Below are positions 4,523 through 13,840 of a stretch of 39,749 nt of DNA, piece by piece. Each line of letters begins with the position of its first letter. Within the stretch, counting starts at the first letter, position 1. This DNA is from a virus. The position numbers and the translations under genes are program-made. The notes under the pieces are model-generated. The model did not search any database and was not told the DNA's origin. It saw only the letters and a list, made by a program, of their open reading frames with translations. Location: positions 1 through 39,749 of the IMG/VR virus record IMGVR_UViG_3300044647_000264; one strand, written 5' to 3'.

Positions 4523-4542
4523 TTAGTGTAAAGGAGATAATC

Positions 4543-5381: not shown

Positions 5382-5438
5382 ATTTTGCGGACCCGCAAAG
5401 TAGGTTCATTGGATAACTACGAGTCGAACGGAGATAGC

Positions 5439-5570
5439 ATGGCAACAACTGATAGAAAAAACGGTAAGGCTTATAAGAAAAAGCCAAAGGTTCAAAAGAA
5501 AACAGGCAAGACCATAGGTGGGTATAGTCCAGCCAAGTTGGCTATCCGTGCCCAGAAAAGAGGCAAGTAA
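5439..5570 (+). CDS. Very small basic protein, 43 aa
   Basis: The first gene after the terminator. The ATG follows an ACGGAGATAGC ribosome binding site; the open frame upstream runs through the terminator and is not used. The 43-aa product begins MATTDRKNGKAYKKKPKVQK and ends SPAKLAIRAQKRGK. About a third of its residues are Lys or Arg, and it has no acidic patch. It is coupled to the next gene by TAATG. It resembles in composition the mini-basic proteins of the late arm but is in the early arm. Function unknown; nucleic-acid binding is a plausible guess. Confidence 0.7.
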   Translation: MATTDRKNGKAYKKKPKVQKKTGKTIGGYSPAKLAIRAQKRGK

Positions 5571-5725
5571 TGTATCTAGACACAGGAACAATGATAGGTA
5601 TTATGATAGCCCTTGTTGCTAGCATCTTGACTATTGGCTATAGCATTTATATAATCAAGACACAGAATGAAATCATTCAGCGTATGAGTAATGCAACCGC
5701 AGCCAGACGCAAGATGGAAAGGTAG
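5570..5725 (+). CDS. Small single-pass membrane protein, 51 aa
   Basis: Starts with ATG inside the previous stop codon (TAATG). The 51-aa product has a hydrophobic stretch from about residue 5 to 30 (TGTMIGIMIALVASILTIG, then YSIYII), followed by a basic, probably helical cytoplasmic tail ending AARRKMER. The positive-inside rule puts the C-terminus in the cytoplasm. It opens a cassette that ends in an exported transglycosylase. It could be an early holin-like, antiholin or superinfection-exclusion peptide; nothing in the sequence decides between these. Confidence 0.7.
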   Translation: MYLDTGTMIGIMIALVASILTIGYSIYIIKTQNEIIQRMSNATAARRKMER

Positions 5726-5731
5726 ATAGCA

Positions 5732-5902
5732 ATGAGAAGCAGAGAAGAACTGCTCAAAATTAAAGAAGCCTTCGCATATGCCATGCTAGATATGCTAGAT
5801 GTATACGATGAGTTAATTGGCAATGCTCCTCGTAAATTATGGGAAGCACCAGAGCCTGCAGTCAACGACCTTCTAAAGAATGAGGAGGAATCCAATGCTT
5901 GA
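5732..5902 (+). CDS. Small acidic helical protein, 56 aa
   Basis: A 56-aa product beginning MRSREELLKIKEAFAYAMLD with a second helix (MLDVYDELIG) and an acidic end (LLKNEEESNA). The ATG lies 6 bases after the stop of the membrane peptide. The ribosome binding site is weak (GGTAGATAGCA). It overlaps the next gene by 8 bases and carries that gene's GAGGAGG site inside its own end. No family is recognised. Confidence 0.6.
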   Translation: MRSREELLKIKEAFAYAMLDMLDVYDELIGNAPRKLWEAPEPAVNDLLKNEEESNA

Positions 5903-6080
5903 AGAAGATACCCCACAATGGGAGCATACCGTGTGGATTATGGCCAAAGTTAGGTGCCGAACTACACATATAAATGTAGATAGAGCAGGCGATGATGCCC
6001 TTGAAGACCCATCCGAATGGCATGTGTTAGAGTTTGATACGGGTATCAAGCATAGCCAAGAGATAATCAGGGTGAGATGA
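5895..6080 (+). CDS. Small hypothetical protein, 61 aa
   Basis: The start is set by a strong GAGGAGG site at 5882-5888, six bases before ATG 5895; an upstream in-frame ATG at 5880 overlaps that site and is unlikely. The 61-aa product has three short beta-like segments: HTVWIMAKVRCRTTHINV, WHVLEFDTGI and SQEIIRVR. It resembles small early phage proteins of about 60 aa with a W-x-V-x-A-x-V pattern, but no family name can be supported. It ends in an ATGA overlap with the next gene. Confidence 0.65.
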   Translation: MLEEDTPQWEHTVWIMAKVRCRTTHINVDRAGDDALEDPSEWHVLEFDTGIKHSQEIIRVR

Positions 6081-6175
6081 TTGAACAAGTCATTGCGAAT
6101 TCATACCTCACACCATCACAATCCTGGACATTCTTACTACTCTTTGGATATATCACATGGAGGATTATTAAATGA
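6077..6175 (+). CDS. Membrane mini-peptide, 32 aa
   Basis: Starts in an ATGA overlap with the previous gene and ends in another ATGA overlap with the transglycosylase gene. The 32-aa product begins MIEQVIANSYLTPSQSW and continues with a hydrophobic segment (TFLLLFGYITW) and a short basic end (RIIK). The coupling on both sides argues that it is a real gene despite its size. One membrane span is likely. Because it is translated directly ahead of the exported transglycosylase, it may aid export or act as a mini-holin; both are inference. Confidence 0.55.
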   Translation: MIEQVIANSYLTPSQSWTFLLLFGYITWRIIK

Positions 6176-6591
6176 AGAGATTGTTAGCAGGGTCTTTAAG
6201 TTGGCTACTAGCGCTATTGTCAGCACCATTCTTGCCCAGTCCAGCAATGGCAGCAGCAGTAGCAGTTCAATTGCAGGACAACTGCATAAACACATCTTTG
6301 TGGACACCAGCAATGGCCAAAGCATACGCCAAAGCATTGATGAAATGGGAGTACCCACATTGGAACAAGTCTGAGTGGAGAGCACTCGCAAAACTTTGGG
6401 GCAAAGAGTCTGGATGGCGACAGCATGCAGACAACCCTAACTCCACTGCGTATGGCATAGCACAAATTCTTAACACTAAACCACACACGCCAGCCCCGCT
6501 GCAGGTTGAGCGGGGACTGGCTTATATCCAACACCGCTACGAAAAACCATCTAAGGCATGGGCACATTGGCGTGCCAAAGGATGGTATTAA
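6172..6591 (+). CDS. Secreted lytic transglycosylase-like protein, 139 aa
   Basis: Likely cleaves peptidoglycan glycan strands outside the membrane. Residues 1-28 look like a Sec signal peptide: basic MKR, a hydrophobic core, and a cleavage site near PAMA-A. The domain from about 65 to the end has the SLT-type pattern LAKLWGKESGWR with Glu79 as candidate acid, then STAYGIAQIL (91-100) and QVERGLAYIQHRY, ending AWAHWRAKGWY, as in short actinobacterial and phage transglycosylases. It lies in the early arm, away from the M15 endolysin at 15190-15636, and follows two membrane peptides. It might weaken the wall, block superinfection or serve lysis. The fold call is strong; the role is inferred. 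Confidence 0.85.
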   Translation: MKRLLAGSLSWLLALLSAPFLPSPAMAAAVAVQLQDNCINTSLWTPAMAKAYAKALMKWEYPHWNKSEWRALAKLWGKESGWRQHADNPNSTAYGIAQILNTKPHTPAPLQVERGLAYIQHRYEKPSKAWAHWRAKGWY

Positions 6592-6709
6592 AATTCGCAC
6601 CACTTGGATAAGTGATTATGGAAGGTGGGTTATACCGCTACCTGCGAACACGGTATACAAACAACTAACAAAGGAGATATATGGCACGAGGAAATGGCAG
6701 GACAATTAA
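6506..6709 (+). CDS. Possible small protein overlapping transglycosylase end
   Basis: A frame that begins at TTG 6506 (or a GTG near 6572) within the transglycosylase gene and runs across the 89-base gap to 6709, overlapping the next gene by 29 bases. The part beyond the transglycosylase reads like a normal protein (TTWISDYGRWVIPLPANTV). There is no strong ribosome binding site. It may be a real overlapping gene or chance; the support is weak. Confidence 0.3.
   Translation: MSGDWLISNTATKNHLRHGHIGVPKDGIKIRTTWISDYGRWVIPLPANTVYKQLTKEIYGTRKWQDN
6631..6657 (+). promoter_or_regulatory. Leader hairpin upstream of 6681 gene
   Basis: TATACCG (6631-6637) and CGGTATA (6651-6657) form a 7-bp stem with a 13-base loop. 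It ends 13 bases before the AAGGAGA ribosome binding site of the next gene. There is no T-run. It belongs to a series of hairpins placed just ahead of strong ribosome binding sites in the early arm. Confidence 0.5.
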
Positions 6710-7144: not shown

Positions 7145-7165
7145 TCCCAAAACAAAGGAGATAAG

Positions 7166-8691: not shown

Positions 8692-8850
8692 ATGATATCT
8701 AAGTTCAAAGAATGCAATGTATGTAGAGAGAAAAAAGAAGTAGTATCTGAATCATTATTTGCTAATGGTTTATATGGCTATTGGTGTAATGACTGCGACA
8801 TAGCAGAAGGTGCTACACATGCACAAACATCAATCAAGGTAAGGAGATAG
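8692..8850 (+). CDS. Zinc-ribbon mini-protein, 52 aa
   Basis: A 52-aa product with two CxxC knuckles (CNVC and CNDC) separated by about 25 residues, MISKFKECNVCREKKE... ending SIKVRR. This is a classic small zinc ribbon. It starts 4 bases after the DUF932-like gene; its last codons (AAGGAGATAG) provide the ribosome binding site for the next gene, which starts one base after its stop. Such proteins usually bind DNA or protein; the target is unknown. Confidence 0.75.
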   Translation: MISKFKECNVCREKKEVVSESLFANGLYGYWCNDCDIAEGATHAQTSIKVRR

Positions 8851-8851
8851 C

Positions 8852-9306: not shown

Positions 9307-9315
9307 TGATATACT
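9307..9315 (+). promoter_or_regulatory. Extended -10 promoter candidate
   Basis: TG-A-TATACT gives a full TGn extension plus a hexamer matching TATAAT at five of six positions. No good -35 lies 16-18 bases upstream, as is usual for extended -10 promoters. Transcription would start near 9322, so the RNA would begin at the hairpin described next. Confidence 0.45.
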
Positions 9316-9320
9316 AATCT

Positions 9321-9374
9321 TGAGCAGCCCTGGTTTCGGCTATCTCCTTTCTCAGGGCTGACTCATAAAGGAGA
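9321..9374 (+). promoter_or_regulatory. Leader hairpin whose loop can pair with the ribosome binding site
   Basis: CAGCCCTG (9325-9332) pairs with CAGGGCTG (9353-9360). TGAG (9321-9324) can extend the stem with CTCA (9362-9365) past a bulged A. The 20-base loop contains TCTCCTTT (9343-9350), the exact complement of the ribosome binding site AAAGGAGA (9367-9374) just before ATG 9378. The two helices could coexist as a pseudoknot or compete. Either way translation of the nuclease gene could be switched by RNA structure. The pairings are seen directly; the regulation is inferred. Confidence 0.6.
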
Positions 9375-9377
9375 GCA

Positions 9378-10145
9378 ATGGCAAAAGTAGAAATAAATAG
9401 AGATAGATATGGTAGGCCATTGATAATTCCACCAACAGGTGGTAAAGCAATTGCCTATACAAGAGCAACTACAATTGCTAACTCATTAGATGATGCCTCA
9501 GCATTAACCGCTTGGAAAATGCGGATGGCAGCAATTGGATTAACTACACGGCCAGATATACTGCTATCAATTACAGCAGCACAAGATGATAAGATGGCAG
9601 TTAACTCTTTGATTGAAGATGCTATGGAAGTAGCAGGCGCAAACAAAGCAGCAAACATAGGCACAGCCATACATTCATTTGCAGAAAGACTAGACTTAGG
9701 ACAAGACTTAGGTATAGTCCCACCGCAATGGGCACCAGATATAAAGGCTTACGAAGAAGCAACTAAAATTCTCAACAATAAGTTCATAGAACAGTTTTGT
9801 GTGCTAGATAAATTTAAAATTGCTGGCACACCAGACAGAATTGTTGAGTATAAAGGCGAGTTGTTTGTTGCAGATATTAAGACTGGTCGAGTAGACCATC
9901 CTAATAACATAGCAATACAGTTGGCTATATACGCCAACGGTTTGCCGTATGATAGTGCAACGGCAACCCGTAGCACATGGGGTGATGTAAACAAAGACAA
10001 AGCAATCATTATCCATCTACCTGCAGGGACAGGCACATGCAAGTTAATGTGGATAGATATTAAAGAAGGCTTTAAAGGTTTAGAATTCTCTATGAAAGTA
10101 AGAAAATGGCGAGACCAAAAAGGTCTTGCTACTCCATTCGAATAG
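9378..10145 (+). CDS. RecB/Cas4-like PD-(D/E)XK nuclease, 255 aa
   Basis: Likely a single-strand or recombination exonuclease. The motifs are in the expected order: GTAIH with His99, followed by Glu103; GTPDR with Asp153; ADIKTG with Asp166 and Lys168; and QLAIYA with Gln181. These are the metal-binding and catalytic signatures of RecB-family PD-(D/E)XK nucleases such as those of phage recombination systems and Cas4. No Cys cluster typical of Cas4 Fe-S proteins is seen (only one Cys near 141 and one near the end). It precedes a Cys-containing protein and an ATPase. Its translation may be controlled by the upstream leader with a self-complementary ribosome binding site. Confidence 0.87.
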   Translation: MAKVEINRDRYGRPLIIPPTGGKAIAYTRATTIANSLDDASALTAWKMRMAAIGLTTRPDILLSITAAQDDKMAVNSLIEDAMEVAGANKAANIGTAIHSFAERLDLGQDLGIVPPQWAPDIKAYEEATKILNNKFIEQFCVLDKFKIAGTPDRIVEYKGELFVADIKTGRVDHPNNIAIQLAIYANGLPYDSATATRSTWGDVNKDKAIIIHLPAGTGTCKLMWIDIKEGFKGLEFSMKVRKWRDQKGLATPFE

Positions 10146-13183: not shown

Positions 13184-13840
13184 ATGAGTGAGGAATGGGT
13201 ACAAGAATATCAGTTGCTTGTATCCTCCCTTGCCTCCGAGTATTCTAAAAGATATCCAATGGTTGAACCACAGGATATTAAACAAATATTATGGCTATGG
13301 TTTGTTACACATCCAGTTAAATACAAAGAATGGTCTAAGTTACCAGCCAAAGATAAAGAAAAACTAATTGCTAAATCATTACGCAACGCAGCATTAAAGC
13401 ATTGTGAAAAAGAAAAATCCCAGAAGTCAGGTTATGACTTACTTGATTTATATTATTACGACTCTTCAGTTATAGAAGCATTTTTGCCATCTATTATTGC
13501 AGGTAGTTACGAGATACCTAGCAAGATAAAAGACCTTAACTTTAAGATGGGCAAAGGCGAAATCACAGACGGAAACAACTGGCTAGTTCTACGGTCAGAT
13601 ATAGAAAAAGCATACAATCAATTAGCAGAGGCAAAACAAAATATTTTAAGGCTACGATTTACGGTAGATAACTGCGAGTGGAATGAGTTAGGCAAAGAAT
13701 TAAATACATCTGCTGATGGTGCACGTATGCGAGTTACCCGTGCAGTTAATTCTTTAGTCAGACATCTAGGTGGATGGCGAACATATGTGGATATGGATAA
13801 CATAGAGACAGAAGAAGATGATGAGCCAAGAGAATCCTAA
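13184..13840 (+). CDS. Sigma-70-like / region-4 helix-turn-helix protein, 218 aa
   Basis: Likely redirects host RNA polymerase. The N-terminal part (LASEYSKRYPMVEPQDIKQI, then LWLWFVTHPVKYKEW) resembles sigma region 2. The C-terminal part (QLAEAKQNILRLRFTVDNCE, WNELGKELNTSADGARMRVT, RAVNSLVRHL; about 146-195) has the form of a region-4 helix-turn-helix. At 218 aa it fits an extracytoplasmic-function-sized sigma factor. It lies three genes before WhiB, and the phage has no polymerase of its own. It is the best candidate for switching on the late arm. An alternative reading is a general HTH regulator. The C-terminus is acidic and overlaps the next gene. Confidence 0.65.
   Translation: MSEEWVQEYQLLVSSLASEYSKRYPMVEPQDIKQILWLWFVTHPVKYKEWSKLPAKDKEKLIAKSLRNAALKHCEKEKSQKSGYDLLDLYYYDSSVIEAFLPSIIAGSYEIPSKIKDLNFKMGKGEITDGNNWLVLRSDIEKAYNQLAEAKQNILRLRFTVDNCEWNELGKELNTSADGARMRVTRAVNSLVRHLGGWRTYVDMDNIETEEDDEPRES

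Follow-up and report, generated by a model that had tools for sequence, protein, structure and literature searches.

What does a phage mRNA leader control when the loop of its hairpin is the complement of a ribosome binding site? We addressed this question for the leader of a RecB/Cas4-like nuclease gene in an IMG/VR virus record of 39,749 bases, the whole of which is referred to here as the window. As the preliminary description had pointed out, TCTCCTTT (9343-9350), part of the hairpin loop, and AAAGGAGA (9367-9374, + strand), the Shine-Dalgarno sequence (SD) of the nuclease, are exact reverse complements over 8 bases. We favor, with moderate confidence, a reading in which the 5' leader of the nuclease operon is a multi-target anti-SD RNA that silences the translation of early genes, the nuclease SD being a weaker candidate target in cis.

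All elements of the leader lie on the + strand. The extended -10 promoter element TGATATACT (9307-9315) reads TG-A-TATACT, with TG at 9307-9308 and TATACT at 9310-9315. An extended -10 that lets the RNA begin at the hairpin had been proposed before; the element is indeed present, and promoter spacing puts the expected start near G9322, at the foot of the stem. A sigma-70 scan requiring a -35 did not list the extended -10 at 9307-9315. The 5' arm of the hairpin (9322-9333) comprises GAG and CAGCCCTGG, and the 3' arm (9352-9364) comprises TCAGGGCTG, a bulged A and CTC. The main stem pairs 9325-9333 with 9352-9360, and an outer stem pairs GAG (9322-9324) with CTC (9362-9364) across the bulged A. 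Both arms, evident from sequence and fold and kept in relatives, enclose the loop TTTCGGCTATCTCCTTTC (9334-9351), whose anti-SD stretch GCTATCTCCTTT (9339-9350) is the complement of AAAGGAGATAGC. The leader fold (9319-9400) has a minimum free energy of -22.5 kcal/mol, and many shuffles are as stable (z -1.3); the fold alone is therefore unexceptional, and the case for a leader element rests on comparison. No terminator able to release a free small RNA was found at the leader.

The first gene behind the leader (9378-10145, + strand) encodes a RecB/Cas4-like PD-(D/E)XK exonuclease (Pfam PF12705, E 9e-5; PHROG 466, E 3e-62). In tblastn searches, its closest named relatives were phage Cas4-family exonucleases, mostly of actinobacteriophages, with identities of up to 39%. 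It is followed by a DnaB-like helicase and then by a RusA-like resolvase and primase pieces. Downstream of these replication genes, a sigma-factor-like protein (13184-13840; PHROG 354, E 5e-15) is a candidate for the next step in temporal control. Freshwater actinobacteria as the host would be a guess, drawn from relatives and from the literature (PMC10202952).

For comparison, we collected 120 leaders of related nuclease genes from phages in metagenomes, 66 of them distinct. A whole-leader MAFFT alignment left the SD unaligned, and pairs were therefore counted structurally by script. Both the stem (S1, 7-16 bp) and the loop:SD pairing (S2, 7-12 bp) are kept in 65 of the 66 distinct leaders, with L1 measuring 4-11 nt. 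In a first set of relatives, hairpin, loop and SD were all kept; a second, more distant set (clade 2) has the loop TTTTGATTAGTCTCCTTT on quite different stems, again before the nuclease. The loop seen in the window is near-invariant in clade 1, and other lineages carry other loop types. Stem arms pair with their own partner at 99.7% of positions, vs 58% when arms are swapped between leaders, which indicates strong compensation in the stem and bears out the compensatory changes that the preliminary description had proposed to look for. The loop:SD pairing varies little: all core changes but one preserve G-U pairs, and clade 2 has acquired a ninth pair, a G-C, that is missing from clade 1. The motif TGNTANNNT stands upstream of the stem in 41/41 testable relatives, with 1.9 expected from shuffled sequence.

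Several further features of these leaders deserve mention. In many relatives (L249 at about 5790-5830, L262, L251, L373 and others) a long palindrome just ahead of the hairpin covers part of the extended -10 of the nuclease promoter. From phage to phage the sequence of this palindrome changes but its arms remain complementary, which would suit an operator or a second hairpin. Many clade 2 leaders (L249, L259, L276 and others) contain a second SD-like AAGGA between AAGGAGAC and the start codon, which could permit nuclease translation while AAGGAGAC pairs with the loop. A boxA-like linker in clade 2 (GCTCTTTTAACA in L247) was considered and rejected, as it is missing from clade 1. In the L247 contig (G004; record positions 5707-6474), the nuclease match falls into pieces with internal stops, and the gene looks broken; the leader is intact.

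An SD retained without its loop complement, the pattern named at the outset as counting against a functional pairing, was found only in a third, more distant lineage with a different leader. In this third nuclease lineage (L373 at about 1400-1500, L374-L452), another conserved leader, GGGGATGGGTGGTCCCGCCATCTGCGAACACGGGACA, lies upstream of the nuclease. Its sequence suggests an H-type pseudoknot some 14 nt ahead of the SD, in which the helices GATGG:CCATC and GTCCCG:CGGGAC cross; L388 shows a compensatory change, and no Rfam family matches. A sublineage of the same group (L376, L383, L413, L433, L537, L540) is without a leader hairpin, and a different promoter region runs into the nuclease SD.

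We then asked how specific this architecture is. Both strands of 2.67 Mb were scanned for hairpins with a stem of 7 bp or more and a loop complementary over at least 7 nt to a downstream purine-rich SD. The scan returned 64 distinct matches, 63 of which have the loop motif of the window leader; reversed sequence gave 1 match, and within the window the leader was the only one. Because the scanned loci had largely been fetched for the nuclease gene, these figures show how specific the architecture is and do not indicate how common it is in phages. Before other genes, the leader hairpin was not recovered: the remaining matches to the loop pattern lie in other contexts, without the stem. Five examples, from cultured Mycobacterium and Streptomyces phages and Dulem virus 32, were examined, and in all of them the nuclease directly adjoins or overlaps the gene before it, leaving no leader of this kind there. 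Host genomes contained matches to the loop pattern but no nuclease relative. Searches of Rfam release 15 at the gathering threshold gave no covariance-model match for the window and nine relatives, and permissive searches gave chance-level matches only.

The most direct use of the conserved pairing would be control in cis, in which the loop pairs with its own nuclease SD, as an H-type pseudoknot or an SD-hiding switch, and governs the translation of the nuclease only; matches to other SDs would then be a by-product of a shared SD habit. This main rival, which we regard as rather unlikely, draws on the near-universal retention of own-SD pairing, G-U-preserving changes and the ninth G-C pair included. 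Its geometry is less favorable. L3 is often only 2-6 nt long, vs stems of 8-16 bp, and by the general geometry of pseudoknots a full stem and a full S2 are incompatible in many members. Of the pseudoknot or two-state switch suggested at first, the capacity of the loop to pair with the nuclease SD thus stands, and a static pseudoknot is doubtful because in many members the linker is too short for both complete helices together. Control in cis also leaves conserved loop bases unexplained: beyond the complement of the own SD, GCTA is conserved in clade 1 and TTA in clade 2, and these bases find their exact complement in the SDs of several early genes located upstream.

Within the window, the loop stretch GCTATCTCCTTT fits upstream early-gene SDs of the form AAAGGAGATA over 10-11 nt, vs 8 nt for the nuclease SD. 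All proposed targets are on the + strand. AAAGGAGATA occurs at 4530-4539 (gene start 4543; the family at about -4.65 kb), at 6670-6679 (gene start 6681) and at 7154-7163 (gene start 7166). The longest match, 11 nt, is to AAGGAGATAGC at 8841-8851 (gene start 8852), with a predicted duplex energy of -18.4 kcal/mol. A further possible target, GGAGATAGC at 5430-5438, precedes a small ORF starting at 5439, for which the gene call is less certain. Two other readings of these matches were considered and rejected. An upstream stop codon does not account for the SD extension, since the SD of gene 8852 overlaps a possible stop and those of genes 6681 and 7166 do not. Nor does the loop appear to mimic the 16S rRNA 3' end: the 16S rRNA tail is CCUCC, whereas the loop has UCUCC and is thereby better suited to the phage SDs than a mimic. 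Among phages in general, AAGGAGAT is a common strong SD, which counts against the multi-target reading.

While testing what the SD holds beyond the needs of the ribosome, we came upon lineage-specific SD extensions in other genes of these phages, with gene starts called by a simple script. Upstream of the nuclease, SDs typically read CAAAGGAGATA in clade 1 and AAAGGAGACTA in clade 2, the complements of the respective loops; in the second lineage, a changed loop is accompanied by changed early SDs (TTAGTCTCCTTT / AAGGAGACTAA). The bases following AGGAG upstream of the nuclease are ATA in 180/232 cases in clade 1, and AC* in 82% (ACT in 105/228) with 4% ATA in clade 2. In clade 3, which is without the loop and has another leader, they are AA* in 78% and ATA in 7%, so the two SD forms are scarce where the loop is absent, and an anti-SD hairpin matching the clade 3 AGGAGAA SDs was not seen in 7 early regions. 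Downstream of the nuclease, ATA accounts for 15% in clade 1 and ACT for 5% in clade 2. The same contrast between clades is found within homologous upstream families at about -4.86, -4.65, -2.75, -2.43, -1.64 and -0.57 kb, in which clade 1 has GAGATA where clade 2 mostly has GAGAC(T/A). As a point against the multi-target reading, many upstream SDs of clade 2 have ACA, in which the base following the C is mismatched. The nuclease SD itself carries the extension in 0/47 clade 1 cases and is therefore the weaker partner of the loop.

Complementary runs of at least 10 nt follow the same pattern. With its own loop, clade 1 has such runs at 41/97 upstream and 1/56 downstream SDs, and clade 2 at 29/110 and 1/55; with the loop of the other clade, the upstream figures fall to 0/97 and 4/110. 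These counts are inflated by shared descent: tested by gene family, the contrast between upstream and downstream gave p 0.02 in clade 1 and p 0.38 in clade 2, and few independent lineages lie behind the joint change, though it involves several separate genes. On whole contigs, SDs with the motif are on the nuclease strand and nearly all within the early block. In the fetched early regions the motif occurs antisense in the leader loop only, in 10/10 clade 1 and 9/11 clade 2 regions and nowhere else. Control in cis would give no reason for the better fit of upstream SDs over the nuclease SD, or for loop and SDs differing together between clades.

Two readings without pairing between the loop and the early SDs were weighed against these data. 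A phage or host protein might read the extended SD in the manner of RegA, the loop being conserved for pairing in cis only; the restriction of the extension to the early block, resembling a translational regulon, would suit it. A protein reader of AAAGGAGAUA does not, however, predict the complement in the loop or its joint difference between clades, and we consider it very unlikely. Least probable of all, in our assessment, is a DNA-level site such as a stoperator-like operator at the early SDs, inverted in the leader. Asymmetric sites across the phage genome are known in cluster A mycobacteriophages (PMC9283540, PMC6550527), and the palindrome described above overlaps the promoter in many relatives. 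The sites considered here nevertheless fall on SDs, spaced as expected from a start codon, and their inverted copy is without exception found in a hairpin loop whose stem compensates, an arrangement for which a DNA site has no need. Both readings are disfavored because neither calls for a complement in such a loop.

The multi-target reading accommodates these observations as follows. From the promoter directly upstream, transcription would begin at the base of the stable hairpin, in whose loop 10-12 nt are complementary to the SDs of about 4-8 same-strand upstream early genes. We infer that, once the promoter fires, the leader RNA is produced and binds the early mRNAs, either between molecules or within a long read-through transcript, and that it thereby blocks 30S binding. 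The resulting repression would lower early-gene translation at the time when the phage turns to replication. The nuclease SD would pair as well, more weakly in clade 1 (8 nt vs 10-11 nt), so that the nuclease may be autoregulated or may partially escape. The direction of action could also be the reverse, with early mRNAs pairing with the loop through their SDs, freeing the nuclease SD and switching the nuclease on while being silenced themselves. The same complementarity would serve, and the upstream matches in clade 1 are longer than the match in cis; an intermolecular duplex would nevertheless have to beat the intramolecular one, and we give this version little credence.

Leader types beyond the two clades, obtained from a scan led by a distant homolog, extend the picture. 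In L520, L522 and L527 the loop reads TGTCTCC, and GGAGACA occurs in 4/5 such upstream SDs, a matching change one base further. The loop of L517 and L518 is GGCTCTCTCC; one upstream SD matches it over 11 nt and the others do not. Counter-cases are L334/L338, L325/L490 and L340/L342, in which outer loop bases have changed, with SDs not following. In L485-L487 the hairpin is present and upstream SDs are without a loop match. Pairing with the own SD region is possible there in other letters, CTCTTTC:GAAAGGG in L485 and TTTTAGTC:GACTAAGG in L486, a point in favor of control in cis. These leaders (L485/L487 and L486) therefore suggest that pairing in cis may be older, with early-block targeting belonging to the clade 1/2 group.

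The initial proposal of an undescribed phage riboregulator is thus supported in part: the leader is a conserved, compensating RNA with a promoter element and is absent from Rfam, but the nuclease SD is probably not its main target. If the multi-target reading is true, early-gene shut-off in a widespread group of tailed phages would depend on base pairing of an mRNA leader and not on a repressor protein, with one RNA loop and the ribosome binding sites of a whole genome block evolving together. Similar regulators could then be sought in phage genomes by looking for a shared SD extension that is complementary to the loop of a hairpin at another place in the genome.

Several known systems share parts of this design. 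In SD-sequestering pseudoknot riboswitches such as preQ1 and SAM-II, a hairpin loop pairs with the downstream SD, and the leader resembles them in having loop:SD complementarity beside a stable stem. Unlike in these riboswitches, there are no invariant ligand residues here, the length of L1 varies, the loop changes between lineages and the stems are freely variable; a riboswitch as the main reading was rejected for want of an invariant pocket and of an Rfam match. Bacterial small RNAs with C-rich or anti-SD loops, in which an unpaired pyrimidine-rich loop can bind many SDs, have their own terminators; here the element is a phage mRNA leader with no terminator found, matched to its own early SDs beyond the generic core. 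A limited literature search brought up no account of a phage mRNA leader whose anti-SD loop addresses multiple genes and changes together with the SDs of the phage. The gene 32 leader pseudoknot of T4 and T2 is likewise a leader RNA structure controlling the translation of a DNA-metabolism gene, described in a 2010 review as perhaps the only viral pseudoknot in translational autoregulation (PMC3014915). That pseudoknot lies 67 nt upstream of the start codon, leaves the SD outside and is bound by gp32, whereas the second helix here includes the SD.

The closest known system is the c4 antisense RNA of P1 and P7, whose loop sequences are complementary to a phage ribosome binding site (PMC12197685). 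By its description, c4 shares with the leader a loop complementary to ribosome binding sites of other phage genes. It is an immunity determinant with the ant mRNA as its single described target, whereas the leader forms the start of the replication-operon mRNA and would address several early genes; unlike in c4 as described, the target SDs change with the loop. By its logic, the closest system is T4 RegA, a single regulator that acts at the ribosome binding sites of many early phage genes (PMC3014915). It differs in being a protein, one that recognizes unstructured A+U-rich RNA, whereas the mechanism proposed here is base pairing through an RNA loop. We tentatively suggest that a single anti-SD loop may serve both as an RNA counterpart of RegA and as the start of the replication operon, the private SD extension that the phage keeps in its early block being rewritten together with the loop.
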